The notes below the pieces were generated by a model. It was not told where the DNA came from. It made no database searches and was given only the letters and a program-made list of their open reading frames with translations. Source: Paenibacillus sp. (lineage in GTDB: Bacteria > Bacillota > Bacilli > Paenibacillales > YIM-B00363). Taken from it: a DNA stretch of 64,000 nucleotides. The stretch spans positions 124,001 through 188,000 of the forward strand of contig NZ_DASQNA010000025.1 in assembly GCF_035645195.1 (NCBI RefSeq). Reading direction: 5' to 3'. Numbering within the stretch: the first letter of the stretch is position 1; each line of letters opens with the position of its first letter. A program made the position numbers and the translations under genes. Positions 7,107-44,038 of this stretch are shown one piece after another.

Positions 7107-7160
7107 ATTATACAAGTTTCAATTTGAGGCATTATAGGTGATGTTTACTTATTGTATAGG
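7107..7160 (-). promoter_or_regulatory. Regulon promoter A: CCTATA direct repeat plus TATAAT
   Basis: On the minus strand, CCTATA (7155-7160) and CCTATA (7133-7138) are 22 bases apart. TATAAT (7107-7112) begins 48 bases after the first. There is no good -35 box; the second repeat occupies that place. This is the same layout as six other sites in the window. It would drive the apiosidase-like/GH95/GH2 operon. Confidence 0.7.
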
Positions 7161-7203
7161 CGAATCGTGTCATTCCGCCCACGCCGATCCGGCGGAAGGA
7201 TAG

Positions 7204-7232
7204 AAAAGGCCTCCGAACAGGGAGGCCCTTTT
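7204..7232 (-). terminator. Terminator after solute-binding protein gene
   Basis: The inverted repeat GGCCTCC / GGAGGCC has flanking A and T runs and lies 27 bases after the stop of the 7259-8638 gene. The A/T flanks make it potentially bidirectional. Confidence 0.8.
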
Positions 7233-7258
7233 GCATAGTGCACCGCTTATTTTCCGTT

Positions 7259-8638
7259 TTATTGATGTTTCCACCAATCGCCGCCGGCCGCTTTGAGCTG
7301 GACCGTCTCTTCGATCTGTTTGTTCATGGCTTCCTCGATCAAACGAAGAGCCGTCGGCGTATCTTTCGATTCCTCGAAGATATGCGTTTGGAACACGCCC
7401 CATACGTTCGGGTTCACGAAGGTGAGGCCCGGCTTGCGCGCCTTCGGCACCGCCGGCTTCAAAGCGAAGATGTTATGAACGTCCTTCCCTTGCAGCTCCG
7501 GCACGTTCTGCGCGAACGCTTGAACGACCGTCTCGTTCATCAACGGACCGGCGAGCGCGTCCTTGGCCCTCGCCAGCTGCACTTCTTCCGAAAGCAGGTA
7601 GGAAATCACCTGGAACGCCAGATCCTTCTTGTTCGATTGTTTAGTAATGAACAGCCCGTTCAGGTTCGGCATGTATTTGGAATTCGGCGCCTCCGGGAAC
7701 ACAGGCACCGCCCCGAACGCAAAGTTCAAATCCGGATACTCGCGGGACCATTTCGTTACGTTCTCCAACGTATCGACCGAAACGGCCATTCTCCCCCTCG
7801 GGAATTCCGAGGTCGACGTGAACTGGTTACCCGGAATATCGTAGAACCGTCTCATGTTATCCACGATTTTCACCCAGGTGTCGGTCGTCAGCGAAGCTTT
7901 GTCTTCGTTCGGATCGAGGGCCGGTTCCGAGAGCTGATTGTACATCATGTAATGGCTGGGGTGCTGCTGCCAGCCTTTGTACGTGACGTCGCCGTCCTGT
8001 CTCGTCATCGTTTTGGCCAGTTCGTACGCTTCGTCGTACGTCATGCCGACATACGGGTAATCTTGGCCGTATTTGTCAAAGATGTCTTTGTTGTATACGA
8101 GCACGAATTCGTCGTTTTCGAACGGCAGCGAGTACAGCTTTCCGTCCGAAGCCAATTTCGAGTTTTCCAGCATCGCCTGGTCCAATACGCTCGTATCGAA
8201 GTTATACTTTTTGATGAGGTCGGACATGTCGTACTCCATGCCGAATCTGACGATCATCCTTGTCGTGTTGCGGCGCACCTGTTCCAGTACGATATCGGGA
8301 ATCGTACCTTTCGCGATCAAATCCTCGTAGCGGGTGCCGTCGTTCCAATGCACGTGCTTGAGTTCGATATCCGGGAACTTCTTACGGATATACTGGCCGA
8401 TCAGCCGCTCGAAATTTTCTTCTTCCTCGTAAATCTTATTTTGCGCCGTGTAGAAGAACAGCACGTTATCCGGCGTCGTGTTCACCGCCGCGGCGTCCCC
8501 GCCCTCCGTCGTTTCCGCATCGCCGTTGTTCTCGGTCGCGTCGGTACCGGTCGGCGCAGCGCCCCCGCCGAAGCAGCCGGCGGTCCCGACAAGTATAAGT
8601 GCGAGCGCAGTCGTCGTGGCAAACCATTTTTTCATCAT
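7259..8638 (-). CDS. Sugar ABC transporter solute-binding lipoprotein
   Basis: This 459-aa family 1 extracellular solute-binding protein would be membrane-anchored by lipid and deliver a sugar or oligosaccharide to an ABC permease. It has a KK-type signal peptide with lipobox VGTAGC and then a Gly/Asn/Glu-rich linker. The SBP fold shows WNDGTRYEDLIAKGTIPDIV and VYNKDIFDKYG, the usual hinge-region pattern. The start is ATG 8638, 7 bases after GGGAGG; the open frame extends upstream, but those codons lack a site. It has its own promoter (site B) and terminator. The partner permeases are probably one of the two pairs in the neighbouring operon, because none lies downstream. Confidence 0.88.
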   Translation of the reverse strand: MMKKWFATTTALALILVGTAGCFGGGAAPTGTDATENNGDAETTEGGDAAAVNTTPDNVLFFYTAQNKIYEEEENFERLIGQYIRKKFPDIELKHVHWNDGTRYEDLIAKGTIPDIVLEQVRRNTTRMIVRFGMEYDMSDLIKKYNFDTSVLDQAMLENSKLASDGKLYSLPFENDEFVLVYNKDIFDKYGQDYPYVGMTYDEAYELAKTMTRQDGDVTYKGWQQHPSHYMMYNQLSEPALDPNEDKASLTTDTWVKIVDNMRRFYDIPGNQFTSTSEFPRGRMAVSVDTLENVTKWSREYPDLNFAFGAVPVFPEAPNSKYMPNLNGLFITKQSNKKDLAFQVISYLLSEEVQLARAKDALAGPLMNETVVQAFAQNVPELQGKDVHNIFALKPAVPKARKPGLTFVNPNVWGVFQTHIFEESKDTPTALRLIEEAMNKQIEETVQLKAAGGDWWKHQ

Positions 8639-8688
8639 CCAAGAACCTCCCTTTATGAATTCCAATTTGAGTAACCGTTTTCAAGAGA

Positions 8689-8742
8689 ATCTTACTATAA
8701 GGCGAAGGCGTTATGATTAGGGTGACGTTCGACATTTATAGG
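8689..8742 (-). promoter_or_regulatory. Regulon promoter B: CCTATA / CCTAAT repeat
   Basis: On the minus strand, CCTATA (8737-8742) and CCTAAT (8716-8721) are 21 bases apart. A TAAGAT -10 candidate (8689-8694) begins 48 bases after the first repeat; TATAGT at 8694-8699 is an alternative. This would give the solute-binding protein gene its own promoter inside the long operon. Confidence 0.6.
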
Positions 8743-8751
8743 CTGTTTACC

Positions 8752-9450
8752 TCATTTTCCCGATACGGCCCAAGTTAAGACGGCCTCGAGCAGCTTCCAC
8801 CCGTCTTCGGTGTGATATACCACGCTGTCCGGATCAAGGTAGATGAACGCCTGGCGCGCCGGCACCGGATGGCCGTTTAAGTTTTTGCCGCCTTTCTCCA
8901 CGGCGAAGACGACCGCTTTCTGCTCGTCGTCCGCCGCCGTCGCCACGATTTGCGCGTCGCCGCCCGGCTTCGCGAAGCCGATAGCGCCTTCCGATTTGTA
9001 CACGTCGACGTTCCCGCTGAAGCCGGCCGCGATCGGGTGGTCGGGATTCGTGATCGCGATCGTTTGCCCCGGAACGGTCCCGTTGTCTACGGTATCGTCC
9101 CAACCGGCCAAATCGATGTCGCTTATGTTTTGCGGTTCGGCGTACACGACGGGTACCGGGGATTTGTACAGCTTGCTTCCGACTTTGCCGGAGCTGATGG
9201 AAGAGCTGACGAAGACGAGGTCGAAGCCTTCCGCCGATTCGGTCGTGAAGTCTCCGTCGAAAATTTCCGTCACCTCGAACCCCATCTTCTTTATTTGGGA
9301 GACGGTAAGGAAGTCCCCGCCGCTGCTCGCCTTCTCCACGTACAACAGCTTTTTGCCCTCCAAGGATACGGCGGCCGGCTCCGTCTTTTGGCATGCGGCC
9401 AACGATACGATCGCAAGGATCATGGCAATGAAGGTTAACGCCTTTCTCAT
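8752..9450 (-). CDS. Lipoprotein with ThuA/glutamine-amidotransferase-like domain
   Basis: This 232-aa secreted lipoprotein (lipobox VSLAAC) carries a single domain starting at GKKLLYVEKASSGGD. The fold looks like the ThuA/class I amidotransferase-like alpha/beta fold also found as a module in secreted carbohydrate-active proteins: alternating strands, FDLVFVSSSISSGKVGSK, NPDHPIAAGFSG, and a terminal DGWKLLEAVLTWA. The plus-strand gene at 44130-44930 encodes a clear homolog. No catalytic Cys is evident, so a binding role is more likely than catalysis; this is inference. GGAGGGG lies 9 bases before ATG 9450. The gene follows the AbrB-tailed ATPase gene by 18 bases and is in the same operon. 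Confidence 0.6.
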   Translation of the reverse strand: MRKALTFIAMILAIVSLAACQKTEPAAVSLEGKKLLYVEKASSGGDFLTVSQIKKMGFEVTEIFDGDFTTESAEGFDLVFVSSSISSGKVGSKLYKSPVPVVYAEPQNISDIDLAGWDDTVDNGTVPGQTIAITNPDHPIAAGFSGNVDVYKSEGAIGFAKPGGDAQIVATAADDEQKAVVFAVEKGGKNLNGHPVPARQAFIYLDPDSVVYHTEDGWKLLEAVLTWAVSGK

Positions 9451-9468
9451 AAAACAGCACCCCTCCGA

Positions 9469-10353
9469 TTAAAATGATTTCGGCGGCGTCAGCACGATTT
9501 TGCCGTCCACCAACGATACTTGCATGCGGCTTGCGTCCCCCGCTCCGACCTCGTCGAGGTACGTTTTGGGGATTTGCAGCCGGCCCGCTTTGTCCATCAC
9601 CGCGTACTCGATAAAAGCCTCTTCCTCTTGTTTCCGCATGCCCATCTCCAGCTCCATCAGCTCCTGGGCGTACGAAGTGCGGCGGACGATTTCCGAAGAT
9701 GCCTTGCCGTCCCGAATCGCCACGACGCGGTCCACCTTTTTTGCCAATTGAGGATCATGCGTGACGACGACGACCGTCAAGCCGAAATTTCGGGTTAACT
9801 CCCGAAACAGCTCGAGAATCTGATTCGCCATTTTCGTGTCCACCGAACCGGTAGGCTCGTCGGCCAGCAGCAGCTTCGGCTGGTTGGCCAGCGCGATGGC
9901 GATGGCGACCCGCTGCTGCTCCCCTCCGGACAATTGGTTCAATCGGTTTTTCCGACGATGCAGCAATCCGACCGCATCCAGCAATTCGAGCGCGCGCTGC
10001 CGCTTGCGCCGCCCCCGAAGCATGATCGGCAGCTCGACGTTTTCCTGAGCGGTCAAATACGGAATCAAATTGCGAGCGCTGTTTTGCCAAATAAAGCCGA
10101 CGGTTTCCCGCTTGTATTTCACCAGGTCGCTTTCCGTCATCTTCAGCAAATCTTTCCCGTCGACGGTCAAATGCCCGGCGGTCGGCCGGTCGAGGCCGCC
10201 GAGCATATTCAGCAGCGTCGATTTGCCGCTGCCGCTGTTGCCGATGATCGCCATCAGCTCCCCGGCTTCCACGTGCAGATCTAGTCCCTGAAGAGCGAGC
10301 ACCTCCAGATCGGCGATCTTATACACTTTGACGAGACCTTCGCAGTGGATCAA
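9469..10353 (-). CDS. ABC transporter ATPase with C-terminal AbrB-like domain
   Basis: This is an ATPase of the LolD/MacB class that would power the FtsX-type permease encoded just upstream. It has Walker [10 protein letters not shown], signature [12 protein letters not shown], Walker [13 protein letters not shown] and the H-loop VVTHD. After about residue 225 the ATPase fold ends. The last ~45 residues read [16 protein letters not shown] through GKIVLTPPK, resembling a SpoVT/AbrB swapped-hairpin domain, an unusual appendage. The start is TTG 10353, 5 bases after GGGGGAGGA and overlapping the end of the permease gene region, so translation is coupled. The longer open frame to 10449 encodes unrelated residues inside the permease gene. 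Length is about 294 aa. Confidence 0.85.
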
Positions 10354-10354
10354 G

Positions 10355-13213
10355 TTAATCCTCCCCCAGCTTGACGGCCTGATGGATTTTGATGCGGGAC
10401 ACGACGTAACCGAGAATCGCCAGCCCGATCGCGACCATGGCCGACACAATCATATACAGACGCATGTAATCGTCCGGGTCGAACGTCACCTTGAACGGCA
10501 ATATTTGCGACTGCGCATCGAACGACATCTCGAACAGGGGCACGAACAACCGGCTGGCGATCGTACCGGTGTAGATGCCGATCGCGATCGACGCCGCCGA
10601 GATCAAGATTTGTTCGCCCGCAAGCATGGCGATAAGCCTCGAGAACGAGATGCCCATCGCGCGGAAGATGCCGAATTGGAGCGTACGCGCATGCAGCGAA
10701 ATGACCCAATACAGCAAAAATCCGACGAACGTAATGCAAATCGAAATGAGAAAGTCCAGCGTCATCACGCCGTTGATCGCGAGAATGAACGGGTCGTTGA
10801 TCGATTGAATCCGCTCCTGCCGCGCGTTCTGCACCGACAGCACGTCGTACCCTTTTTCGGCAACCGCGTCGTACACTTCTTGGCTGCTTGCTTCCGGCTG
10901 CAGCCTGAACCATACCTCGTACGGCTCGAGAGCGAGCTGGCTCTGGATGTACGGCAAATTGCCGACGATCAGCTTGGGCGTTTCGGCCCGCTCGCTTCCG
11001 GCGGGAACGTTCGGCAGGGGGTTCCAGGACGGCCAATAATCGATGATCGCGAATACGATGAAATCGGCTTGATCCGTTCCGCGCCAGCCGAGGGTGAGCG
11101 TATCCCCGGGCCGGAGTCCGAGCTCCGCGGCCACCGATCGGGAAATCAACACGGCGGACGGTTCCGAAGCCATGAGATTCAAGTAGCTGTTAAACGGGTA
11201 CTCCAACAGCCCGCTTCGCATCCAGGCCGTATGGCCGAAGTCGTACGTTTCAATTCCCATCAACTGAACTTCGCTCTTGGCGGAATTCCCTTCGAACACG
11301 GCCGCGTCTTCCTTGATGAACACCTTCGCGGCGTGGCGGACGCCGGGAATTTCCGTGAAGGGCAGAAACGAGGGCTCGGAATATTGCGTCCTCCTCGGCG
11401 CCGCTTGAGAATCCCCCGCCCCCTCATCGTCGGAACCCGACAGGATGAGCGGCGGCGCGTCGTTCTGCCAATAAATTTGCATCCGGATGTCCGTCCCGAT
11501 ATCGTAATAAATTTTGTCTTCCACGTTCTTGTTGATCGTCCGGTTGGCGCTCGCTCCGAAGATGCCGGTGGCGATCGTCACGATCATGAACACCATGATG
11601 AATTGGTACTGGGAGGAAGACCGGCCGATTTGAACCAACGACGACGACAACGCCGGCGTCCACCAGCGCCTCCCCAGCCTATACACGAGGCGGATCAACA
11701 GCGGATACCACCGGAGCAAGAACAAGGCGGCGCCTAAAATGAAAAACGACGGTATTAAAAATAACAGCGGATCGATCCGGATATCGGCGGCGGAACGGAT
11801 GCCGAACGACAGCATATGCCGAATGCGGGATTGGTAATTTTGCAACCCGTACAGCGCGACGGCGATGAGCGCGACGTCGATGAAATACTTGTGCCAGAAC
11901 GACAGCTTTTGGAGCCTCGCCATCTGCTGCTTTCTTCCGACGATCGACACCCCTGTCGCAAGAAACACCGGGATTAACGTCATCAGCAGGGAAAAGCCGA
12001 CGGCGGCCAGCGCGTATTCGAACGCTTCCCGGTTTACGGAAGCCTCTACCTTGGCGCGCTGCACGAATTCGAGGAACCCGCTCGACGCCCCGAGCAGCTT
12101 GGTCAACAACAAGCCTAAGTAAGGACCGGCGGCGAAAGCGATCGCGCCGAGAATCGCCCCCTCCGCCGCGTAGCTCGCGATAATTTGCCAGCGGCTGGCC
12201 CCGCGGCTCCGCAGCACGGCGATTTCCGTTTTCTGCCGCTCCGTAATTAAATTGGCTACCATGTATAGGTAGAAGGCGAGCATCAGCATGATCGGCACGT
12301 GCAACGACCACAGCAGGATGCGGAGCTTCGCCTCTTTTTCGAAATAAACGCCGAGCGTGCCCAGCGCCGGAACGTTCGAACCGGTATCTTCGAATGTGCC
12401 GTTCATGAATTTGCCGATCGACCGGTCCGTCCTGAGAAAATCGCCGACGGACGACAGCGTCATTTTCGAATAATCGAGAGCGAAGTACCAGTAGCCCGAC
12501 TTGACCGGGAGCTTGCCGCCTAGAACGAACTCTTCGGTATACAGGTCGAAATCAAGCAGGAAGCTGCTTTTGTAGCTCCCCGGATGGTTATACCAGAACA
12601 AATCCGAGCGGTCGTTCGGTTCGATGACCCCGACAGGCCTGACGCGGATCGTCTCGCTCACGCCGTCGTCCCGAATGGTAAATTCGTTGCCGAGCACCAT
12701 GTTAAACTCGGTCAGCGCCTCGGGTACGACGAGCGCCTCGTAGACGCCGTCCACCGCCTCTTTGGCGGGAAGACGGCCGTCCGTAAGGCGGACATGGCGC
12801 TCGATGTCGCTGATCGCCGTCAAATCGGCCCACACCATATTGTCGATATCGACCTGCTCCGCGCTGGCCGGCGCGAAGCTGTATTTGTCGGTCACGCGCT
12901 CCCGCACGAAAAATTGCACGGGGATGCCGAATTTGCCGCCCGCTTCGCGCAAATATTCGTCGGCGGCCGTCACGTCGCTCCCCTGCGAGTCTTCGGGGGT
13001 CAGGTTGGCCGATAACCAATAGGTGCCGGGATATTGATTCATCGAAATTTGCAATTGTTGAAGCTCCTTGATGAGCAAGCGGTGCAAAATCGCGTTCGTA
13101 TAAATCGGCAAGCTGCTCGTCAAGGCGACGGTCAAGACAAGTCCGAACAGGAGGCTGAGCTCGAGCCATTTGTTTTTGATCATTTTGCGGATGATCATCA
13201 CCACTAATGCCAA
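10355..13213 (-). CDS. FtsX-family ABC permease (MacB-like, large)
   Basis: This roughly 950-aa integral membrane protein is the mechanotransmission/export permease of the MacAB-like unit. It has an N-terminal helix (LLFGLVLTVALTSSLPIY), a long extracytoplasmic region, a central group of helices (ILLWSLHVPIMLMLAFYLYM onward), a second extracytoplasmic domain (about residues 560-790), and a C-terminal FtsX domain with three helices ending RIKIHQAVKLGED. Two FtsX modules in one chain suggest a pseudo-dimer serving two ATPases. TTG 13213 is 7 bases after AGGGGGG; TTG 13219 in the same frame is too close to it. The gene begins 12 bases after the adaptor gene stop. The transported substrate is unknown. 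Confidence 0.85.
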   Translation of the reverse strand: MALVVMIIRKMIKNKWLELSLLFGLVLTVALTSSLPIYTNAILHRLLIKELQQLQISMNQYPGTYWLSANLTPEDSQGSDVTAADEYLREAGGKFGIPVQFFVRERVTDKYSFAPASAEQVDIDNMVWADLTAISDIERHVRLTDGRLPAKEAVDGVYEALVVPEALTEFNMVLGNEFTIRDDGVSETIRVRPVGVIEPNDRSDLFWYNHPGSYKSSFLLDFDLYTEEFVLGGKLPVKSGYWYFALDYSKMTLSSVGDFLRTDRSIGKFMNGTFEDTGSNVPALGTLGVYFEKEAKLRILLWSLHVPIMLMLAFYLYMVANLITERQKTEIAVLRSRGASRWQIIASYAAEGAILGAIAFAAGPYLGLLLTKLLGASSGFLEFVQRAKVEASVNREAFEYALAAVGFSLLMTLIPVFLATGVSIVGRKQQMARLQKLSFWHKYFIDVALIAVALYGLQNYQSRIRHMLSFGIRSAADIRIDPLLFLIPSFFILGAALFLLRWYPLLIRLVYRLGRRWWTPALSSSLVQIGRSSSQYQFIMVFMIVTIATGIFGASANRTINKNVEDKIYYDIGTDIRMQIYWQNDAPPLILSGSDDEGAGDSQAAPRRTQYSEPSFLPFTEIPGVRHAAKVFIKEDAAVFEGNSAKSEVQLMGIETYDFGHTAWMRSGLLEYPFNSYLNLMASEPSAVLISRSVAAELGLRPGDTLTLGWRGTDQADFIVFAIIDYWPSWNPLPNVPAGSERAETPKLIVGNLPYIQSQLALEPYEVWFRLQPEASSQEVYDAVAEKGYDVLSVQNARQERIQSINDPFILAINGVMTLDFLISICITFVGFLLYWVISLHARTLQFGIFRAMGISFSRLIAMLAGEQILISAASIAIGIYTGTIASRLFVPLFEMSFDAQSQILPFKVTFDPDDYMRLYMIVSAMVAIGLAILGYVVSRIKIHQAVKLGED

Positions 13214-13225
13214 CGTCAAGCCCCC

Positions 13226-14257
13226 CTAATAGTTCAAAATCACCTTTTGCCCTTCTTGCAGCCCTTGCCGGATTTCGACCTCCGTCGAGGTGACGATCCC
13301 TTTCTCCACATCTACTTCTTTGCGGCTTTCGCCCTCGAGCACCTGCACGAAATCGCGGTTCAAATACGTTTGCAGCGCGGAGCGCGGGATGATCAGAACG
13401 TCGTCCCTTCGTTCCGTCACGATCGTGATTTTCGCATGCGTCCCGATCCCGGCGTCTTTCGGCGCGTCCGGCACGTCGATGACGATCGATCGGGAATTGC
13501 GTTCTTCGATGTCCTGATCGTCGCTTGCGGGCGCCGTCAGCGGCGTTTGCACGACCTTCCCCTTGTACGTTTGGCCGTTAATCTCCACGTCGACCTCCAT
13601 TTGGACGGCCACGCCCGCCAGGTCGGCGCGGTTGCCGGCCGTATACACGAGCTTCAGCGAAGACGGGTCGGAGATCGTGATCAACTCTTTGAACGCCGAC
13701 ACTTTGTCTCCGGGTTTCACGCCGTCGAGGTAAGTCACGATGCCGTCCATCGTCGCCGTCAGCCTCGATTTTCGAAGCTGCTCCTTTAGGACGTTCAATC
13801 GAATTTCCGCGCTTTTCAGATCGAGCATTTTCAAACGGACCGACGGATCGTCCGGTCCTTTGTCCGCCTTTTCCTGCGCCAGCGAAATTTTGATTTTTTC
13901 CATATCGATCGTTCTCAGCTCGATTTCCGCTTCCAGATCGTTCGTCTCGACGGAGGCCAGCACGTCGCCGGCTTTCACTTCGTCGCCTAGTTGCACCTGC
14001 ATGCCGGAGAACGTTCCTCCGGATTCCGTGAAATACAAATATTCCATCCGGTCGGATTGGAAGGTCGCGTCGCCGACGATTTGTTTCATGATCGAGCCGC
14101 GCTTCACTTCGGCGGTGGCGATGTTTTGCTGCACCGGCTTGACCAGCGGCGGCTGCAGTTCCTGCTCCTCGACAGGCAGAAGGGAACAACCGGGCAGCGC
14201 GGAGGCGAAGATGACGCAGATCGCCGACGCACGGAACCATCTAGTCTTCTTTAACAA
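13226..14257 (-). CDS. HlyD/RND-type efflux adaptor lipoprotein
   Basis: This is a periplasmic-adaptor-type (MacA-like) protein, here a Gram-positive lipoprotein anchored outside the membrane (lipobox SALPGC). Domains in order are: a beta-barrel/lipoyl half motif (MQVQLGDEVKAGDVLASVET), a helical hairpin around residues 110-170, the second lipoyl half (ATMDGIVTYLDGVKPGDKV), then beta-barrel and membrane-proximal domains ending EVEIRQGLQEGQKVIL. The open frame begins at ATG 14266 inside the end of the upstream ATPase gene. TTG 14257 is better spaced (9 bases) from GGAGG at 14267-14271 and I use it. It overlaps the ATPase gene end, so the two are translationally coupled. Confidence 0.83.
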   Translation of the reverse strand: MLKKTRWFRASAICVIFASALPGCSLLPVEEQELQPPLVKPVQQNIATAEVKRGSIMKQIVGDATFQSDRMEYLYFTESGGTFSGMQVQLGDEVKAGDVLASVETNDLEAEIELRTIDMEKIKISLAQEKADKGPDDPSVRLKMLDLKSAEIRLNVLKEQLRKSRLTATMDGIVTYLDGVKPGDKVSAFKELITISDPSSLKLVYTAGNRADLAGVAVQMEVDVEINGQTYKGKVVQTPLTAPASDDQDIEERNSRSIVIDVPDAPKDAGIGTHAKITIVTERRDDVLIIPRSALQTYLNRDFVQVLEGESRKEVDVEKGIVTSTEVEIRQGLQEGQKVILNY

Positions 14258-14948: not shown

Positions 14949-14981
14949 CCTGCGCCCCCCTTTCGCCGGGAAAAGCTTCTA

Positions 14982-15956: not shown

Positions 15957-15980
15957 GCCGAAACCCCCTTTGTCGACTCG

Positions 15981-30639: not shown

Positions 30640-30699
30640 CTCTACTAGCCTCCCGTCTAACAAATGGAATGTTCCGGATCTGGCATCGTTTGCATCCTC

Positions 30700-30753
30700 A
30701 TTGTATCTCGCTTGTATGCAAAAGTTAGGGGGGATGTTCGACGATTGTATAGG
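30700..30753 (-). promoter_or_regulatory. Regulon promoter D: CCTATA / CCTAAC repeat plus TACAAT
   Basis: On the minus strand, CCTATA (30748-30753) and CCTAAC (30724-30729) are 24 bases apart. TACAAT (30700-30705) begins 48 bases after the first. It lies between the AraC gene stop and the SLH gene start, and proves useful for choosing ATG 30639. Confidence 0.65.
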
Positions 30754-32792: not shown

Positions 32793-32926
32793 GTCATTAA
32801 TTCCTCCTTGTTATCGTTACCGGCAGTTCCTTTAACGGCGTCATGAACCGGCGGCCGGCTTCGCCGCGTGCGAATGCGTTGTCAATTCCCCCCTGTCCGT
32901 AGTGCCCTGCATCCGGCAGCGCGCGG

Positions 32927-35083: not shown

Positions 35084-35149
35084 GGCAGTTTCCCCCTCCT
35101 CCGTCGTGCCGGATATCGGTGATGAAAGCGTTTTTTTATTTATACCCTT

Positions 35150-35202
35150 ATTATAACTGCCTTTTTTATCCTGTTAATGCCATTTCTCCCTACAACTATA
35201 GG
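35150..35202 (-). promoter_or_regulatory. Regulon promoter E: CCTATA plus degenerate second half and TATAAT
   Basis: On the minus strand, CCTATA (35197-35202) lies 47 bases before TATAAT (35150-35155). The second half-site is weak (CATTAA at 35174-35179). It is the poorest match of the seven but sits correctly upstream of the MGH1-like gene. Confidence 0.5.
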
Positions 35203-36190: not shown

Positions 36191-36220
36191 GCATAGTCTC
36201 CTTGTCTATATGTGCCGACC

Positions 36221-38587
36221 TCAGTGAATCGGTACGATATCGTATCGCTGCCCCGGAGCGGTTCGGAATGCGACCAAGCCGGCTTCGATGACCTCGGTCT
36301 CGACGTCGCGGCCCTCCTGCCGCACTCGGACCGGAACGCCGGCGCGCAGCCGGCAGCCGCCGCCGGACGCCGAGGTCACCGCCGCGCGGCTGAGCGAACC
36401 GCGCTCCCATGCGATATCGACGAGATAACCGCCGCGCGCTCTCAGCCCCGTCACGCTTCCCCGGTTCCACCGCTTCGGGAGCGCGGGGAGCAAGTGCACC
36501 GCGCCGTCATGGCTTTGAAGCAGCATTTCCGCGATGCCTGCCGTACCCGCGAAATTGCCGTCGATCGAAAAAATGTCCATCTTCACCTTCGGATGCCGAT
36601 GGGCGTTCATCAAATTCGGATGCAGCCCGCCCAGCAGCTCCGTCAAGAAATGGTCGGCGGCGTCTGCCTCCTCCAGCCTTGCCCACAGGCTGATCAGCCA
36701 AGCGCAGCTCCATCCCGTGTGTCCCCCGCCGTGTGCGAGGCGCCGTTCCAGCGACTTGCGGCAAGCCTCCGCCAGCTCGGGATGACGGCGGAGCGTGATC
36801 CGATCGCCGGGATGCAGCGCGAACAGATGGGCGGTATGACGGTGTCCCGGTTCGGACTCTTCGAAATCTTCGTCCCATTCCTGCAGTTGACCGTACCGGC
36901 CGATCCGGAACGGAGGAAGGCGCGAAAGCGCCTGCTCCAGCTCGGAACGGAACGCCTCGTCCGTGCCCAAAATTCGGCAGGCTTCGATGCAGTGTGCGAA
37001 TAAAGAGCCGATGAGCGCCATGTCCATCGTCGACCCTTTCGTCACGCTGCTTTCTTGTCCGTCCCCCGCGATAAACATATTTTCGGGAGATGTCGAAGGA
37101 CATGTGACCCAATACCCGTCCTCGTCTTCCACCAGATAGTCCACGCAAAACATCGCCGCTTCCTTCATCGCTGGGTACCATCGTTCGAGGAACGCCCGAT
37201 CCCGACCGAATGCGTAATGCTCCCATATATGGAGGCTCAGCCACGCGCCGGCCATCGGCCAGAACGCCCAGCTCGGCGATCCGCCGCTGGGAGTCGCGGT
37301 TCTCCAAATATCGATATTGTGGTGCGCGGTCCACCCCCGGCAGCCGTAATGCACGCTGGCGACTTTGCTCCCCGTCGTTCTCAGATCGTCGATCAAATCG
37401 AACAGCGGAAGATGGCATTCCGCCAAATTGCACACTTCCGCCGGCCAATAGTTCATTTCCAAATTAATATTGGTCGTCCAAGCGCTGCACCAAGGGGGCT
37501 GAATGCGATCGTTCCAGATGCCCTGCAAATTCGCCGGCTGGGTTCCGGGACGGGAACTCGCCAGGAGCAAGTATCTTCCATACTGAAAAAATAAAGCCGC
37601 AAGCCCGGGGTCGTGCTCGCCGTTCTTGACCGCTTCGATGCGGGCGTCGGTCGGCCGCTCGCTACGATCCTCTTCCCCGATCTCGAGCGCGACCCGGCGG
37701 AACAGTTCGGCATGATCGGCGGCATGGCGCTCCTTCAATGCGCGATACCCCAATGCCGCGGCTCGCTCCAGCCGTTGGGCGCACCGGCTGGCGGAGCGTT
37801 CCGCGTATGCCGAAGGATCCTTGTCGTATCCGGCAAAGCTTGTGGAAGCGGCCAGCAGCAGGACGATTTCGCCCGAACCGCTGACGCGAATTCGGCCGCC
37901 GCTGACCTCCACCTTGCCTCCCGGCGCCGCCGCGTGCAGGACGACATCGAACGCGATGCCTTTGTTCTCCGCATAATGGACGGGCTCCTCCGTTCGGACC
38001 GTGTTCGGAAGCACATGCGCGGGCGATCGCCCCGACATTGCGATCCGATCGGCGCCCGCCTTCCGCACCGAATACTGCAGCGGGCTGCTCAGCGATACCG
38101 TGAACGTTTGTTTGGCTTCGCTGTACAACCTCACCGCCATGACCTGGTCAGGGGCGGATACGAACACTTCGCGGCTGCAAGCGGCGCCGTTCAGACGGTA
38201 GGACACCCGCGCGACGCCTTCCGTCAAATCCAATTCCCTGCGGTATTCCGTCATTTCGCCGGCATCTTCGAACTGCAGTTCCAGATCGCCCAGTGGCAAA
38301 TACGATTCCGTCCAAGGCCCTTGCATGTAATGCTCTATGGTTCGTTCCGCTTCGACGTACTGCTTCGCGAAGACGAGCTCCCGGACGCGGCCGAGATGCC
38401 GAATCGCATCGTAGCGAACCGGATCGCGCGGTTCTCCGGACCAGAGCGTCTCCTCGTTCAATTGGATCCGCTCGCGGCGCGTCCCGCCGAACACCATGCC
38501 GCCCAAACGGCCGTTGCCTACCGGAAGCGCCTCGATCCACCGCTCGGCCGGCCTTGCGTACCACAATTTCAGCTTGTTGTCGGACAT
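36221..38587 (-). CDS. GH95-family alpha-L-fucosidase / alpha-L-galactosidase (paralog)
   Basis: This 788-aa second GH95 enzyme opens with LWYARPAERWIEALPVGNGR, carries [12 protein letters not shown] in the barrel and FSIDGNFAGTAGIAEML near the C-terminal active-site half. The family Asn pair and Asp region are therefore intact. There is no signal peptide. A GGGGAG site precedes ATG 38587. Compared with the 1769-4105 enzyme it has a different insertion after the first domain. Two GH95 genes in one regulon suggest two alpha-L-linked caps, for example fucose and L-galactose; this is inference. Confidence 0.9.
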   Translation of the reverse strand: MSDNKLKLWYARPAERWIEALPVGNGRLGGMVFGGTRRERIQLNEETLWSGEPRDPVRYDAIRHLGRVRELVFAKQYVEAERTIEHYMQGPWTESYLPLGDLELQFEDAGEMTEYRRELDLTEGVARVSYRLNGAACSREVFVSAPDQVMAVRLYSEAKQTFTVSLSSPLQYSVRKAGADRIAMSGRSPAHVLPNTVRTEEPVHYAENKGIAFDVVLHAAAPGGKVEVSGGRIRVSGSGEIVLLLAASTSFAGYDKDPSAYAERSASRCAQRLERAAALGYRALKERHAADHAELFRRVALEIGEEDRSERPTDARIEAVKNGEHDPGLAALFFQYGRYLLLASSRPGTQPANLQGIWNDRIQPPWCSAWTTNINLEMNYWPAEVCNLAECHLPLFDLIDDLRTTGSKVASVHYGCRGWTAHHNIDIWRTATPSGGSPSWAFWPMAGAWLSLHIWEHYAFGRDRAFLERWYPAMKEAAMFCVDYLVEDEDGYWVTCPSTSPENMFIAGDGQESSVTKGSTMDMALIGSLFAHCIEACRILGTDEAFRSELEQALSRLPPFRIGRYGQLQEWDEDFEESEPGHRHTAHLFALHPGDRITLRRHPELAEACRKSLERRLAHGGGHTGWSCAWLISLWARLEEADAADHFLTELLGGLHPNLMNAHRHPKVKMDIFSIDGNFAGTAGIAEMLLQSHDGAVHLLPALPKRWNRGSVTGLRARGGYLVDIAWERGSLSRAAVTSASGGGCRLRAGVPVRVRQEGRDVETEVIEAGLVAFRTAPGQRYDIVPIH

Positions 38588-38618
38588 GTCTCCCCTACTC
38601 CTCTCCCTGCCGCTTTCC

Positions 38619-40163
38619 CTATTTCAACGGCAGCGGCATATCCGTACGTTCGGATTCCGGCTCCTGGACGGACCTAACGACATGCAGCAACGCGAGCGGC
38701 GCAGGATCGTTCGTCAGCGCCAACCCGTCCGCCGTAAACCATCCGTCGCGGTATCGATTGCGGAGCAGCCATTCCCCCGCGCGGATCGCGTATTCGAGGT
38801 ACTCGGCGCGTTCCGTGGCGCGGTGAAGCTCCAGCATGCCGTACACGAGCCGATGGTCGGCCTCCTTCGGGTCCGGCAGCCGAACCGTCCCGGCGCCGCC
38901 TTCGCTCTCCCCGATATCGCCGATGCCGAGACCCGCCGCGATGTCTCTCGCCATTCGCCACAGGAACGGGTCGCCGGACGCGCGGTACCCCGCCGCGTAC
39001 ATCCAAAAAAAATCGACGCTCGCGCGAATCGGACCGAACGCTCGTCCCTTCGGCCCGAAATACCCGTTGCGGTCGAGCGTCAACCCTTCGATGCTCCAGC
39101 CGTCCGTCAGCATCGGCGCAAAGCTGTTGTCTTGCCTTCGATACGACTTGTCGCCCCAAGCGGCCATCTCTTCGCTGGACCAGCGAACGAACTCCTCGCC
39201 GGCCGCGCCGAGCGTCTCCCCGATCGCCAGCTGGCATCGCTGCACGACCGGCCGAGGCTTAAACAGCGTCCCTTCGTAAACAAGGTGCCCTTCCGGAATG
39301 AGCGGCGCCAATTGGTACTGCGCGCGGTCTCCGCGAACCGACGGCCCGTCGCACCACGCGTTAGCCGATTGGCTGAATTGGTACCCGCTGATCCCGACCC
39401 CGTCCTGCCTCGTGTCCACATACCGTTTCGCCAGCCGTTTCGCCCAAGCGAGCGGATGCGGGTCTTCGGACAAATGCGACAGCATCGCGGCGGCATAATA
39501 CAGGTCGCTTCCGGTGTTGACGAAGGTCAATCCTTCCCCCCAGAAGAACACGTCTCCCCCCTTGTATTCGCTGCGCCAAAGCGGCCCGAGGGGCGTGTTG
39601 TAAGGCCCGTGACGGTTGAAGTCGAGAATCGACCAATCGATCACATGCGCATTCCAAAACGCCTCGATATAGGCGCGGGTCGATGCGGGGTCCGCCGCCC
39701 ACATCAACTCGTAGTCCGGATAATGGAATTTCAGCTCGTGCACCTTCTGCTTGTCGGCGGCGAATTCGATTCTTTGATGTTCCAAGTCGTAAGCCGTGTG
39801 GCCGCCCCAATGGATCAGACCGCTATCGTCGACGTGATGCCGGAACAGGTGACGCAACGCCGATTGCGCCGCCTCCGCGTAAGCGGGATTCTCCGTCAGC
39901 CGGGTCAATCCGGCAAGCAAACGCAGCCAATGGTGTTGGCTGGCCGTGTTCGAGAGCACGGCGTCCTTGCGTACGTGGTCGGTGTCCACCCGCGCCGGCA
40001 GACCGGCGGCGGCGTCCACCCCGTTCGCGAACAACGGCGTCGAACCGTACGGGTCTCGAGCCGCCTTCATCATGCGGTCCGCGTGGCTGACCGCCGCTTC
40101 GAGCAGCGCGCCAGCACGCTCCTTCCATGCCGATGTGCCGGAGCTCCATCGATTCCCGTCCAT
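38619..40163 (-). CDS. Cytoplasmic (alpha/alpha)-barrel protein, possibly PL2-like pectate lyase
   Basis: This 514-aa soluble protein has a helical-barrel look: HHWLRLLAGLTRLTENPAY, FRHHVDDSGLIHWGGHTAYD, KVHELKFHYPDYELMW, FWNAHVIDWSILDFNRHGPY, and a late WFTADGLALTNDPAP. The His/Glu/Arg-rich central motifs and length remind me of family PL2 pectate lyases, which are intracellular or periplasmic oligogalacturonide lyases. I cannot confirm this, and a novel glycosidase is possible. ATG 40163 lies 6 bases after GGGGGGA; the open frame to 40223 has no site. It is in the same operon as the 913-aa protein (44-base gap) and the GH95 enzyme. Confidence 0.55.
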   Translation of the reverse strand: MDGNRWSSGTSAWKERAGALLEAAVSHADRMMKAARDPYGSTPLFANGVDAAAGLPARVDTDHVRKDAVLSNTASQHHWLRLLAGLTRLTENPAYAEAAQSALRHLFRHHVDDSGLIHWGGHTAYDLEHQRIEFAADKQKVHELKFHYPDYELMWAADPASTRAYIEAFWNAHVIDWSILDFNRHGPYNTPLGPLWRSEYKGGDVFFWGEGLTFVNTGSDLYYAAAMLSHLSEDPHPLAWAKRLAKRYVDTRQDGVGISGYQFSQSANAWCDGPSVRGDRAQYQLAPLIPEGHLVYEGTLFKPRPVVQRCQLAIGETLGAAGEEFVRWSSEEMAAWGDKSYRRQDNSFAPMLTDGWSIEGLTLDRNGYFGPKGRAFGPIRASVDFFWMYAAGYRASGDPFLWRMARDIAAGLGIGDIGESEGGAGTVRLPDPKEADHRLVYGMLELHRATERAEYLEYAIRAGEWLLRNRYRDGWFTADGLALTNDPAPLALLHVVRSVQEPESERTDMPLPLK

Positions 40164-40207
40164 GCCGCATCCCCCCATAATTGAACGTTTCTGCGAAACG
40201 AACGTAG

Positions 40208-42949
40208 TTATTCGAACAGCCAATCGAGCGTGTCGACGCCGTCGTTGCGGTGTTCCACGTCCCGAGGCCGCAGCGACTCGTCTTCGCGGATGACGCCGAG
40301 CAGAAGGTACGCCCCTTTGCCGAAATCCAGCGTATGCCGCCCCGCTTCATAACGAATTGCGTGAACGTTGACGGAAGGATAAGCGAACAGGCGCAGCCCT
40401 TTGCGCAAAATCGGCATATATCCGCCCCGGTCGTCCGCGTGCGTATTTTCCTCCAACCTCGGGGGCTGCAGCCATTGTTCATCCGTCGAATTGAAATACC
40501 CGACCAACACGTGAGCCGGCTGCGGCAGCTCGATCTCCACTGCACGGCCGGCCGCGGCCGCCTCCCGTTGGCTGAAGCGGATCCCGGTGAGCCCTTCCAG
40601 CTCCTCCGCGCAGCCGGTAATCCGCGTATCCCCGTCCGTGAACGCGAATGCGCCTTTCTTCAGCACGTACGTCTCGGCGCCGGTCGAATGCAGCGCGAAC
40701 GGCGCTTCCCGGTAAGCGGCGATCCGTTCTTCCTCGCGCCGAAGAGCCTCCGGCACGACGCCGGACGACAGTTCGCCGACATGCCGGCGGAAACGCTCGA
40801 GCTCTTGTTCGTACACCGGCAAGCATTCGCTCCAATGCCGGAAGGCGAACCCGTCTCGGATCGGCACTTTGCGCTGCGGCGTCTGCATGCTGTTGGCGTA
40901 GAAATACGTCCGTTTCGTGATCACCGTGAGCTCTCGGTAATGTTGAACGCTCTTCTCCAGATGGGAAAGCGCTTCCCTAAGCAGCTCCGCATGATCGAAG
41001 CACGTCTTTCTCGGCAGGTGCTTATACGTGAGCACGGCGATCGCCGCCCTTACTTTGTGCGAATAGAAATACACCATCCGACGGATCGCCTCCACGTCGT
41101 CGGCCAGCCGCTCGAACGATTCGCGGTCTCGGGCCGCGAACGCGCGCGCCGCTTCGATCGCGGCGGCCGCGGTCTCCGCGTGACGTTCCGCGTCGGCGAT
41201 CGTCTCGGGCGGCGTCTCCCCGATATGCGGTTCGCCTGACAATTCCTTGACTACGTATTCCTCGAGACGTTCGCCCTGCGGCGATTGGGATTCCCATAAA
41301 TCCGGCCACGGCATGTGACGGTCCGGGTTCGTCAGCTGGCTCATCGTCATGCCAAGGCTCATCGTTTGCCGATTACCTTCGGTAATGCCGAATCTTCGCA
41401 GCAGCTTCGGAGCGCACTCGCCGAACGCATCGTACGCTTCCAGGATCGCCGCGCCCGCCCGAGAGCTGCCGAATCGCCGGCCGATCGTATCCTTCCAGTA
41501 CCGCCGCTCGGCCTCGGGATCGCGGTCAGGATTCCAGGCGTACCGGAACCATGCGGCGAACCAAATCCAATCCCGATCCATCTGACGCAGCCGCGGCTCC
41601 GTCCGGTCCGGCGAATACGGCCAATCCCAGAAAAACAGCGGATACAGATGGAGGCCGTTCGCATGGAGGCGATATTTCGCCGCTTGCATGCACTTTTGGA
41701 TGAATGCCGGCGAGCCGTAACGGAACGGCTCCAGATTGGCCAAAATATGGACGTTGATGATATGCACCGATCGATGCGAGGCGAGCTGGCGATGAATGTC
41801 CTGCCACTTGCCGCGCGGCGTCCAGGTCGTCAGCGATTCTCCGTTGTACTTCGCTTCCGTATACAAGTTCGGATACAGCGGCAGCGCCGCTTCGACGACC
41901 TTGTTCGCGTCGATGGCGTGCGAGCGCAGGATGACCGGGGGGAGCTCCTTGACGCCGGACTGACGCAGCCCATCCCGGATGCCCTCCAGAATCGTTCCGG
42001 TAAACCACTCCGCCCCATACATTTGCCCCTGCAGCGCTTCCCCGAGGCAAACCATCAGCCCCGCGTTCGGATACGCGCTCACGAACGCCGCGAGCGACTT
42101 CTTGTAATAATCGCTCGTGATCGGAAGAGGCTTCGGTTGATGCAGCTTCAACCCGTGCTTCTGCGCGAACGGCAGCGGGATGTGTATGTTGTAAAATTTC
42201 ATTACGACCCAGATGCCCCGCCGGCCCGCTTCTTCCGTCAACCATCGGAACGTATCCGCGTTCAGCGCGAATTGCTCGTCCGTCACCTCGAGCGCTTCCG
42301 GATACTCTTCCAGCCTCACGAGCGAGGAGAACGGATGGCCGCTCCACAGGTAAATGACATTGCAGCGCTCTTCCATTAGCATATCGAGGAACTCCGTCCA
42401 CAGCGTCCGGTCGTAAAACCAAGGAAACCGGTCGGGCGTGATCGGATATTCGTACGTCTGACGGGGCGGTTCGACCGTCATCTTCTGCAATCCGATCGCC
42501 GGACCCCGCAGCCGAAAACGGGGCGCATCCCCGAACGCGAGATCGTTCGGCAGCTCCCCGGCGATGCGGATTCGGCGCGCAAGCTCCTGGCAGCCGTAAA
42601 GCACGCCGGAATCGTCTCCTCCGGAAACGGCCAGCAAATCGCCGGGGACCGACGCAAGATAAAACCCCTCGCTCCCCGGCGCGTCCGTATGATACAGCAG
42701 CACATCCCGCTCTTCCAACCCGCGCAAAAACTGCGACGCGCCGCGATTGCCGGCGTAAATTTTCCTTCCCTCGCCGGTTCGGTAACGGTCCCACTCCCAA
42801 AGCTCCGAATTCTCGTACACGTGATAACCGCATTCCTGCAGCGCAGCCTTCAGCAAATCGAGACCGTACCTTACCCTCGGCGAGGGATTTCTGTCGTATC
42901 CGAGACAAATATTGTCCAACGCGGACCTCCTTTCTGCTGCCGCGTTCAT
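40208..42949 (-). CDS. Unclassified TIM-barrel glycosidase-like protein (GH20b/alpha-glucuronidase-like N-terminus)
   Basis: This 913-aa protein is cytoplasmic. The first ~130 residues resemble the alpha/beta domain that precedes the barrel in GH20/GH67/GH115 enzymes (LLAVSGGDDSGVLYGCQELA). A TIM barrel runs about residues 150-480 (PWFYDRTLWTEFLDMLMEER, GIWVVMKFYNIH, GLMVCLGEAL, NLYTEAKYNGESL). A helical region (about 560-720) and a C-terminal beta domain follow. Candidate catalytic Glu residues are in CLGEAL and YTEAKYNGE. I do not recognise a characterised family. ATG 42949 overlaps the aldolase stop (ATGA) after GGAAGAG, so they are coupled. Confidence 0.7.
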   Translation of the reverse strand: MNAAAERRSALDNICLGYDRNPSPRVRYGLDLLKAALQECGYHVYENSELWEWDRYRTGEGRKIYAGNRGASQFLRGLEERDVLLYHTDAPGSEGFYLASVPGDLLAVSGGDDSGVLYGCQELARRIRIAGELPNDLAFGDAPRFRLRGPAIGLQKMTVEPPRQTYEYPITPDRFPWFYDRTLWTEFLDMLMEERCNVIYLWSGHPFSSLVRLEEYPEALEVTDEQFALNADTFRWLTEEAGRRGIWVVMKFYNIHIPLPFAQKHGLKLHQPKPLPITSDYYKKSLAAFVSAYPNAGLMVCLGEALQGQMYGAEWFTGTILEGIRDGLRQSGVKELPPVILRSHAIDANKVVEAALPLYPNLYTEAKYNGESLTTWTPRGKWQDIHRQLASHRSVHIINVHILANLEPFRYGSPAFIQKCMQAAKYRLHANGLHLYPLFFWDWPYSPDRTEPRLRQMDRDWIWFAAWFRYAWNPDRDPEAERRYWKDTIGRRFGSSRAGAAILEAYDAFGECAPKLLRRFGITEGNRQTMSLGMTMSQLTNPDRHMPWPDLWESQSPQGERLEEYVVKELSGEPHIGETPPETIADAERHAETAAAAIEAARAFAARDRESFERLADDVEAIRRMVYFYSHKVRAAIAVLTYKHLPRKTCFDHAELLREALSHLEKSVQHYRELTVITKRTYFYANSMQTPQRKVPIRDGFAFRHWSECLPVYEQELERFRRHVGELSSGVVPEALRREEERIAAYREAPFALHSTGAETYVLKKGAFAFTDGDTRITGCAEELEGLTGIRFSQREAAAAGRAVEIELPQPAHVLVGYFNSTDEQWLQPPRLEENTHADDRGGYMPILRKGLRLFAYPSVNVHAIRYEAGRHTLDFGKGAYLLLGVIREDESLRPRDVEHRNDGVDTLDWLFE

Positions 42950-43851
42950 TGAATCTCTTCCTTTATGTAGCCTAATTCTTTGTAACGCCGGAGCAGCGTT
43001 CTAAGCTCTTCCTTCAAGGCGGGTTCCGGCGGGGCGATCGGAGGCCGGCACGGACCGGCGTTCAGCCCCATCATGTTCATCGCTTCCTTAAAAACGGACG
43101 GCAGCGTCGCTCGCTTGTACAGCTCCGACAACGGCCGCAGTAGCGATTGCGCTTCTTTCGCCGCGGGAAGCTCCCCGTTTTTCCATCGGGCGTAAATCGC
43201 GGTCATCAGCGCCGGAACGACGTTCGCCGAGCCGCTGACGCCTCCCTTCCCGCCTGCGGCGAGCGTCCACAGCAGCAACGAGTCGGAGCCGGACAACACC
43301 GCGAAGTCCGGCGTCGTTGCGTGAATATATTGTAAGATCGTGTCAAAGCTGCCGCTGCTGTCTTTGATCCCGACGATATTCGGAATGCTCGACAACTCGG
43401 CCACCGTCCTCGGTTCCAGGTGGACCCCCGTGCGTGCCGGGAAGTTATACAGCACGATCGGCAGCGACGTCCAGGAGGCAATGCTCTTGTAATGACTTAT
43501 TAATTCCTGCTGTGTCAACGGCAGAAAATACGGCGTGATGATCGACAGCGCGTCCGCCCCGACGGCCTCCATCCTTTCCGACAGCTCCGCCGTTTCCTTC
43601 GTGCCGATTCCCCCCGTGCCCGCGTAAACCGGAACTCTCCCTCTCGTTTCGTCGACGACGATCTCCACGATGCGGATCTTCTCCTCCGCCGTTAACGAAA
43701 AAAACTCGCCGTTCGTTCCCAAACAAAACAAGCCGTCGGCCCCCGACTCGATAAACCGGTTGACGAAACGGCGGAGCGCGGGCTCGTTCAGTTCATGTTT
43801 TTCCGTGAACGGCGTGATCAGCACCGGAATAACCCCTTCAACACGCAGCAT
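42946..43851 (-). CDS. DapA/NanA-family Schiff-base aldolase
   Basis: This 301-aa TIM-barrel class I aldolase or synthase belongs to the dihydrodipicolinate synthase / N-acetylneuraminate lyase superfamily. Catalytic Tyr135 lies in YNFPARTG and Schiff-base Lys163 in GIKDSSG; the substrate-binding motif is GTNGEF. The location at the head of a glycosidase operon, behind promoter F, argues for cleavage of a 2-keto-3-deoxy sugar acid (KDG, KDO, DHA or sialate type) to pyruvate rather than lysine synthesis. AAAGGAG precedes ATG 43851 by about 9 bases. Confidence 0.85.
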   Translation of the reverse strand: MLRVEGVIPVLITPFTEKHELNEPALRRFVNRFIESGADGLFCLGTNGEFFSLTAEEKIRIVEIVVDETRGRVPVYAGTGGIGTKETAELSERMEAVGADALSIITPYFLPLTQQELISHYKSIASWTSLPIVLYNFPARTGVHLEPRTVAELSSIPNIVGIKDSSGSFDTILQYIHATTPDFAVLSGSDSLLLWTLAAGGKGGVSGSANVVPALMTAIYARWKNGELPAAKEAQSLLRPLSELYKRATLPSVFKEAMNMMGLNAGPCRPPIAPPEPALKEELRTLLRRYKELGYIKEEIQ

Positions 43852-43874
43852 TATGATCCACTCCTTTGAGTTTC

Positions 43875-43928
43875 AATTTATTATGAAAGTCGAAGGCAGT
43901 TATAGGGGGTTTTACCCACGTTTATAGG
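43875..43928 (-). promoter_or_regulatory. Regulon promoter F: perfect CCTATA-N16-CCTATA repeat
   Basis: On the minus strand, CCTATA (43923-43928) and CCTATA (43901-43906) are exactly 22 bases apart. A weak TAAATT -10 (43875-43880) begins 48 bases after the first. It drives the aldolase/glycosidase operon and is divergent from promoter G. Confidence 0.7.
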
Positions 43929-43984
43929 TTGTTTTGCCCTTTTTCCCTTCCGCTTCGAACGGTCTTCAAACTAGCAACAAACAA

Positions 43985-44038
43985 CCTATATTTATGGAAT
44001 GAACCCCCTATAAACAGTAAACTCTCTTTCCGTACAAT
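43985..44038 (+). promoter_or_regulatory. Regulon promoter G: perfect CCTATA-N16-CCTATA repeat plus TACAAT
   Basis: On the plus strand, CCTATA (43985-43990) and CCTATA (44007-44012) are 22 bases apart. TACAAT (44033-44038) begins 48 bases after the first. This is the same geometry as the minus-strand sites, for the only plus-strand gene. Confidence 0.72.

Follow-up and report, generated by a model that had tools for sequence, protein, structure and literature searches.

In a 64,000-nucleotide stretch of a Paenibacillus sp. genome (assembly GCF_035645195.1, 5.95 Mb in 55 contigs; C25:124001-188000, where C25 is contig NZ_DASQNA010000025.1), referred to below as the window, seven promoters were found to share the hexamer CCTATA at a near-constant distance from their -10 region, and these seven sites are very probably the operators of one AraC-family activator of class-II type, the product of the gene at 30767-31705 on the minus strand, the genes served looking like a set for the use of a complex pectin, probably rhamnogalacturonan-II (RG-II). 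The sites themselves, their specificity, their conservation and their linkage to the regulator gene were all computed. In every one of the seven stretches the 5' end on the transcribed strand is CCTATA, which starts 47-49 bases before a -10-like hexamer, as an earlier, sequence-only reading of this DNA had claimed for all seven, the single plus-strand gene included.

Six of the sites lie on the minus strand. Promoter 1 (7107..7160) carries CCTATA at 7160-7155 and 7138-7133 with the -10 hexamer TATAAT at 7112-7107; promoter 2 (8689..8742) carries CCTATA at 8742-8737, a degenerate CCTAAT at 8721-8716 and TAAGAT at 8694-8689; promoter 3 (27302..27356) carries CCTATA at 27356-27351, CCCATA at 27334-27329 and TATAAT at 27307-27302; and promoter 4 (30700..30753) carries CCTATA at 30753-30748, a degenerate CCCCTA at 30731-30726 and TACAAT at 30705-30700. 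Promoter 5 (35150..35202) has a single good half-site, CCTATA at 35202-35197, its second copy being at best GCATTA or GGCATT. Promoter 6 (43875..43928) has CCTATA at 43928-43923 and 43906-43901 and a -10-like TAAATT at 43880-43875, while promoter 7, on the plus strand (43985..44038), has CCTATA at 43985-43990 and 44007-44012 and TACAAT at 44033-44038. The -10-like hexamers are TATAAT in three cases, TACAAT in two, and TAAGAT and TAAATT in one each. The earlier claim of a CCTATA direct repeat in all seven regions therefore stands for the first copy; the second is exact in only three (7160 and 43928 minus, 43985 plus), is CCCATA in one and is degenerate in three. Spacing from copy to copy by best match is 21-22 bases, not the 21-24 proposed, with less certainty for the degenerate second copies. 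Counting both strands, the window contains 18 CCTATA hexamers, 10 of them within the seven promoters. The repeat unit extends beyond six bases, since the 11 columns 5' of one CCTATA copy and those 5' of the other show a correlation of 0.70 in register but of 0.35 at most when shifted, the part common to both copies being A(A/T)(C/T)C-n-CCTATA.

Specificity was examined across the genome. The exact pattern CCTATA-N15..18-CCTATA was present at three places in 5.95 Mb, all within the window (promoters 7160, 43928 and 43985). As the reversed-pattern control gave four genome matches (places not listed) against these three, the evidence from the exact pattern lies in its clustering, (64/5951)^3 = 1.2e-6, and not in its number. 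A full 70-base model (R1), built from 11 sites at the relatives' regulator loci and likewise without the window genome or Paenibacillus alkalitolerans, gave three matches over the whole genome at E ≤ 10, namely 7160 (8.9e-9), 27356 (0.17) and C25:110933-110966 (1.55); because it recovered only two of the seven sites, a two-block matrix of two half-sites plus the -10 was adopted. This matrix was trained on 32 relatives' sites (effective number 12.6; 34 rows less the shifted duplicates L024 and L025, with L050, L058 and L059 left out beforehand), the window genome and Paenibacillus alkalitolerans being excluded from training and 440 kb of the window genome serving as background. Over the window plus these 440 kb, promoters 1, 7, 3, 4, 6, 5 and 2 ranked 1, 2, 3, 4, 5, 7 and 11, respectively, the last a weak match, and ranks 8-10 were shifted readings of the same seven sites. 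At a score of at least 20 there were six window sites and one in the background, so the matrix does not match random DNA as often as promoters, the outcome that would have refuted the sequence-only reading. A third model (R2; 27 sites, the seven window sites included, and hence circular for those seven) gave eight matches in the window genome, the seven sites and an eighth outside the window; in P. alkalitolerans it gave seven in the syntenic stretch and three more with E ≥ 0.19, and in three genomes of the same genus without a strong regulator match (G002, G003 and G005) nothing below E 0.2. The one background site scoring at least 20 (L038:6954 minus; C25:110954) lies 13 kb before the window, upstream of genes for a Gfo/Idh/MocA oxidoreductase and an esterase-like protein, and has a good first half-site and -10 and a poor second half-site. 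It is probably an eighth member of the regulon, which has at least this one further probable member beyond the window.

The gene at 30767-31705 encodes a protein with an N-terminal AraC/cupin-type ligand domain (PF02311, E 1e-10; RhaR chains match residues 23-118) and a C-terminal tandem helix-turn-helix of the AraC/XylS type (PF12833, E 2e-23), whose second recognition helix is GYQDMKFFHALFRKKTG. It scored below the NCBIfam equivalog cut-offs for AraC (arabinose; 86.7 against 208 bits), RhaS (88.4 against 288) and RhaR (85.1 against 525). Of the 21 loci obtained in named genomes, 19 hold orthologues, 52-90% identical and with similar gene order, and a two-copy CCTATA site lay within about 1.3 kb after the regulator gene in 18 of the 19; in the remaining locus, L028, the sequence ends too soon, and a site is present 5 kb before the gene. 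Co-occurrence was then surveyed in 392 genomes of the order with a regulator threshold of E ≤ 1e-75. The strict pattern was found at 42 places in 36 genomes (reversed control 4, by reading of the rows) and the regulator in 35, with both present in 32 genomes, the regulator only in 3, the site only in 4 and neither in 353. All 31 genomes whose orthologue is at least 50% identical contained a strict site. The distance between site and regulator, taking one site per genome and the regulator-adjacent one if there were several, was 35-1302 bp in 29 of the 32; the exceptions were G362 (3.6 kb), the window genome (23.6 kb) and P. alkalitolerans (23.9 kb), and in the latter two a looser site adjoins the regulator gene although the strict site is distant. 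By co-occurrence and adjacency, the 30767-31705 product is the best candidate for the regulator of these sites.

The closest named relative by regulator is P. alkalitolerans (90% identical), in which all seven sites have counterparts, at L034:19992-, L035:1587-, L036:243-, L036:3919-, L037:5048- and L037:5103+ for promoters 1, 2, 3, 4, 6 and 7, that of promoter 4 having two exact CCTATA copies. Over the gap-free columns of the pairwise alignments, 143 of 168 half-site bases were identical between the two species, compared with 474 of 697 bases elsewhere in the promoters. In 34 relatives' rows the -10 lies 46-48 bases from the first copy. Two loci (L024:11005-11080 and L025:10998-11073) contain three phased copies, CCTATG-22-CCTATA-22-CCTATA, where perhaps a third monomer binds.

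A link between the recognition helix and the operator was also observed. The second helix DMKFFH is present in every aligned orthologue at least 52% identical (L030 lies outside the alignment) and in the 39-42% identical homologues L031 and L032, both of which also carry the CCTATA repeat; seven AraC loci from the genus whose helices differ showed no such repeat in about 3.8 kb each. Residues 278-284 of the regulator align by offset with MarA 90-96, which we take to be base-contacting residues. The codon pattern for DMKFFH was found at 60 places in 50 of the 392 genomes, and the window genome has one exact match, inside the regulator gene. The helix test comprised 33 loci (20 non-orthologue codon-pattern loci and 13 further homologues), of which L140, L153 and L159 were not AraC and were set aside. 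Under a rule allowing at most two mismatches in both copies together, a spacing of 21-23 and a -10 within one mismatch at 46-49, the repeat was present in 24 of the 30 DMKFFH-like AraC loci, whereas 60 blocks of 6 kb from the window genome gave none and 165 shuffles gave two; helix variants among the 30 were DMKYFH, DMKHFH, DLKFFH and DMKFFY, and many of the loci are close relatives of one another. With L031 and L032 included (a second L032 match, at 14691, fell outside the 3-kb limit and was left out), the 28 sites were all upstream of the regulator gene and pointed away from it, 25 at 0.8-1.0 kb from the helix and three at 3.2-4.4 kb, with a spacing of 22 (24 sites) or 21 (four) and the -10 starting at 47 (13), 48 (13) or 49 (two). 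Together with the co-occurrence, the adjacency within 1.3 kb in 29 of 32 genomes and the shared gene order, the helix test supports the AraC-family assignment made from the sequence alone and the choice of the 30767 gene. There is an even chance that it reflects a clade-wide code, in which Paenibacillus AraC regulators with a DMKFFH helix would recognise operators built of tandem A(A/T)(C/T)C-n-CCTATA units at intervals of about 22 bp, fixed at 47-49 bp before the -10, differing mainly in ligand domain and targets, and of which the window would represent a one-component RG-II regulon in a Gram-positive bacterium. At L145-L147 and L149, DMKFFH-type AraC genes face a gene that by eye is MFS-type transporter-like, with the same operator geometry, and the helix-operator code may not be limited to glycosidases. 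A second type of cluster was seen in G304 (L072, L086, L087) and G297 (L074, L088, L089), with six sites in about 50 kb, parts of which were unread; sites there were counted at no more than one mismatch in both copies and a -10 within two. These clusters also encode two of the clade's regulators, whose identity to the 30767-31705 product is 62% for one and 45-46% for the other.

The architecture of the promoters would suit activation. At 16-18 bp from the -10, five of the seven window promoters have at least three mismatches to TTGACA, so the earlier statement that no -35 consensus exists is correct for these five; it does not apply to 35202, nor fully to 43985 plus, where TAAACA-16 has two mismatches. 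None of 48 two-copy sites in relatives is within two mismatches of TTGACA at 16-18 bp, and because none has a usable -35 these promoters look activator-dependent. A direct repeat 21-22 bases apart with its second copy at about -38 to -33, over the -35 region, is present as in class-II promoters, the second copy being weak in three of the seven, and this geometry fits a class-II-type AraC promoter, at which the bound protein would activate. The promoter at 35202 has a layout of its own. In all 17 relatives' loci examined (of 19; L013-L026, L028, L029 and L033), the equivalent promoter retains an exact CCTATA, 46-48 bases ahead of its -10-like hexamer, and at a spacing of 21-23 lacks any second copy with one mismatch or fewer, and since the same form with one half-site recurs in 17 of 17 it is a conserved variant rather than the product of decay. 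A -35 within two mismatches was found in only four of the 17 (L013, L023, L024 and L028) and so is not general. Our reading is that this promoter supplies the regulator on different terms from the other promoters; that it is less activator-dependent, in the window species and P. alkalitolerans only, would be a guess.

Several observations weigh against a single activator acting at all seven sites. Three sites, 8742, 30753 and 35202, have a poor second half-site, and the last of these also has the near-consensus TTAACA-16-TATAAT, in both the window and P. alkalitolerans, and is the least conserved site, sharing 17 of 24 half-site bases with that species. Site 8742 scores 13.5 in the matrix, level with the next background match at 13.1 and not separable from background; it is the weakest site, and its place in the set rests on its P. 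alkalitolerans counterpart. Model R1 missed five of the seven sites. In the survey, the Fisher value of 3.7e-39 for co-occurrence is overstated, as genomes and paralogues are related and the counts non-independent. In the three regulator-only genomes the regulator is 40-42% identical and lacks a strict site, a looser CCTATA/CCCATA-type site being present (L080-L082). None of the four site-only genomes has a strong regulator match; in G067 a DMKFFH helix and pieces of an AraC gene lie beside the site, G207 has a 39% homologue, and G165 and G189 are unexplained. Within the helix test, six of the 30 DMKFFH-like AraC loci had no site under the same rule (L070, L071, L077, L141, L148 and L152), and three of the 24 positive loci (L072, L074 and L078) had been identified beforehand as carrying a strict site.

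Other explanations were weighed against the same evidence. It is unlikely that the regulator acts as a repressor, occupancy of the half-site at -38 blocking RNA polymerase; some AraC proteins do repress without ligand, and the second half-site overlaps the -35 region, yet none of the 48 relatives' two-copy sites has a usable -35, so that the promoters look activator-dependent, and the -10 keeps a near-constant distance from the first copy, 46-48 in the relatives' rows and 47-49 in the helix-locus sites. Slightly less probable still is that something else reads the boxes, the 30767 gene being only a neighbour of them, whether the LacI-type protein at 44973-46097, the response-regulator AraC at 61939-63582 or several AraC paralogues. 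AraC-type genes are indeed numerous, with 142 loose candidates in the genome, and other AraC proteins with a DMKFFH-like helix adjoin nearly the same operator. The LacI family, however, binds palindromes, whereas the repeats here are direct, and in the 61939 regulator the second helix reads GYQNPQYFSKMF, unlike that of the 30767 product; both proteins were rejected as readers of the CCTATA boxes. The single exact DMKFFH codon match in the genome, together with co-occurrence and adjacency, points to the 30767 gene.

Two further alternatives concern the nature of the motif, and both are far less probable. That CCTATA is the -35 element of an alternative sigma factor, with the first copy incidental, would account for the CCTATA-like copy near -35 in most sites and is very improbable, because the invariant copy in the window is the first, at about -60, and not the second, and only the first is kept in the 35202-type promoters of 17 of 17 relatives' loci; moreover, the box before both CCTATA copies matches in register, and the -10 is of the ordinary sigma-A type. 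This sigma reading was rejected on the in-register boxes and the first-copy-only promoters. Least credible of all is a chance reading of AT-rich promoter DNA as a motif, for although the exact pattern is no commoner genome-wide than its reversed control, its three matches all fall in one 64-kb window, and the matrix ranks, conservation and co-occurrence all argue against it; chance was rejected on the matrix scan of the window plus 440 kb.

An AraC-type activator at these promoters would work as follows, binding, activation, inducer, substrate and operon boundaries being the inferred parts of the scheme. Two AraC monomers would be arranged head to tail, each on one half-site (modelled as 17 bp), with the half-sites about 22 bp, or two helical turns, apart and each made up of an A(A/T)(C/T)C box with a CCTATA 3' of it. 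The first CCTATA would fall near -60; the second, at roughly -38 to -33, would stand in for the -35 element, and the bound regulator would recruit RNA polymerase to a sigma-A -10 in the class-II manner. The inducer, probably a pectin fragment, would bind the cupin domain. The target genes would provide the enzymes and importers needed to use a branched pectin, most likely RG-II, and the promoter leading into the regulator's own operon, with its one good half-site, would perhaps depend less on the activator.

Matches to what we take to be the CcpA cre consensus (two mismatches at most, within about 100 bases after the -10) were found for five of the window's seven promoters and, in relatives, for 23 of 42 sites, the density in the window being 0.08 per 100 bases. 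The boxes TGAAAACGGTTACT (8670..8683, minus), directly 3' of the promoter 2 -10, and TGTAAGCGCTTCTA (44044..44057, plus), 3' of the promoter 7 -10, have counterparts in P. alkalitolerans. Only these two of the five are kept there, those without a counterpart being TGGAACCGATATCA (27289..27302, minus), which overlaps the end of the promoter 3 -10, TGCAAACGATGCCA (30681..30694, minus; two mismatches) at promoter 4 and AAAAAACGCTTTCA (35123..35136, minus; two mismatches) at promoter 5. The boxes are candidate binding sites for CcpA or another LacI-family protein. A perfect cre-like TGAAACCGTTATCA occurs in several relatives.

The genes that follow the seven sites are summarized here from promoter 1 onwards. 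Promoter 1 lies upstream of two apiosidase-like/DUF5060/DUF5605 genes and a glycoside hydrolase family 95 (GH95) gene at 1769-4111 (together 1769..7044, minus), and promoter 2 upstream of an extracellular solute-binding protein (SBP) gene (7259..8665, minus). Promoter 3 precedes a MalK-like ATPase gene and then a long run of transport genes (8752..27310, minus) for a 990-aa SBP, permeases, an NHL/Yip1 protein, a DUF5696 protein, further permeases, an ABC/HlyD/FtsX unit and a 232-aa protein; judged from co-orientation only, this run would form one transcript. Promoter 4, immediately 3' of the regulator gene, is upstream of an SLH-domain protein gene (27484..30608, minus; start codon approximate, searched as the longer mechanical open reading frame 27484-30858). 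Promoter 5 is followed by genes for an MGH1-like glycoside hydrolase (32927-35083) and a BNR_2 protein (31713-32792; together 31713..35083, minus) and then by the regulator gene. Promoter 6 precedes genes for a DHDPS-family protein, a GH138-like 913-aa protein (40208-42949), a PL2 polysaccharide lyase, a GH95 and a BNR_2 protein (35213..43851, minus), and promoter 7 a gene for a 266-aa protein with a signal-like start (44130..44930, plus), homologous to the 232-aa protein (8752-9450); neither of these two small proteins, putatively ThuA-like in the sequence-only reading, had a Pfam or NCBIfam match. The set holds two GH95, two apiosidase-like/DUF5060, one MGH1-like, two BNR, one PL2 and one DHDPS-family protein, several ABC importer parts, the ABC/HlyD/FtsX unit, the SLH protein and the two related small proteins. 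In P. alkalitolerans, homologues of the 266-aa protein stand three in tandem at L037:6056-9460, with an SBP after them.

The likely substrate was judged from the enzymes. The 913-aa protein matches BPa0997 structures over residues 87-912 (E 5e-210), and GH138 is presumably the family name of such BPa0997-like α-galacturonidases; against the NCBIfam α-galacturonidase equivalog NF049878 it scored 1018 bits, below the cut-off of 1300. According to the part of the source covered, BT0997 of Bacteroides is an α-galacturonidase of RG-II (PMC7939467). Because the 913-aa protein matches BPa0997 and BT0997 acts on RG-II, a complex pectin, with RG-II as the most likely one, is the best guess for the substrate of the regulon. 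The apiosidase-like protein at 5602-7044 contains the Pfam Apiosidase domain and among structures matched only 4n0r up to E 10, with no BT1012 entry (the presence of BT1012 in the structure library was unchecked). As 4n0r was the sole structure match, a GH140 assignment was not adopted for this protein, and the apiosidase part of the RG-II reading is the weaker for it.

For class-II activation, Escherichia coli AraC (at araI1-I2) and RhaS bind a pair of directly repeated half-sites, each about 17 bp long, of which the proximal one overlaps the -35 region. The window operators resemble these in half-site layout and differ in sequence, and the regulator does not reach the NCBIfam AraC and RhaS cut-offs. 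Bacteroides RG-II loci use SusCD, whereas the window has ABC importers and an AraC one-component regulator; the two are alike in having a BPa0997-like protein (here of 913 aa), GH95 and apiosidase-like enzymes. Named components of the Bacteroides loci in the text covered include the α-galacturonidase BT0997 and the apiosidase BT1012 (PMC7939467). Among Bacillales, the portion of PMC3870299 covered describes novel AraC-family rhamnose regulators with unique motifs, direct repeats of 21-bp periodicity and mostly local sugar regulons, as well as RhgR, an AraC-family regulator for rhamnogalacturonan. Since 21-bp direct repeats are described there for such regulators, the operator architecture as such is already known; compared with these systems, as far as that text goes and with motif logos not compared, the window has a CCTATA unit, a larger operon set and different genes (PMC3870299). 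PecR, the pectin regulator of Caldicellulosiruptor bescii, is likewise an AraC-family protein, encoded next to pectate lyase genes, in a distant bacterium and with other genes in the part of the source covered, its motif not being compared (PMC8579813). MsmR1 of Paenibacillus polymyxa is also an AraC-family sugar regulator, for which two MEME motifs, neither of them palindromic or containing an inverted repeat, and no CCTATA repeat, appear in the text covered (PMC9722767). Among the matches listed from the open-licence literature, outside which most subscription journals fall, there was no published report of a CCTATA AraC operator, of this regulon, of the helix link or of a one-component RG-II regulon in a Gram-positive bacterium.

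With these sites, about 27 genes (the open reading frames following the seven sites) become one testable response with a named regulator, and the operator matrix works across relatives. The match between recognition helix and operator concerns a family, AraC, whose specificity is difficult to predict. Should RG-II prove to be the substrate, the regulon would show how a Gram-positive bacterium may organise the use of the most complex pectin.

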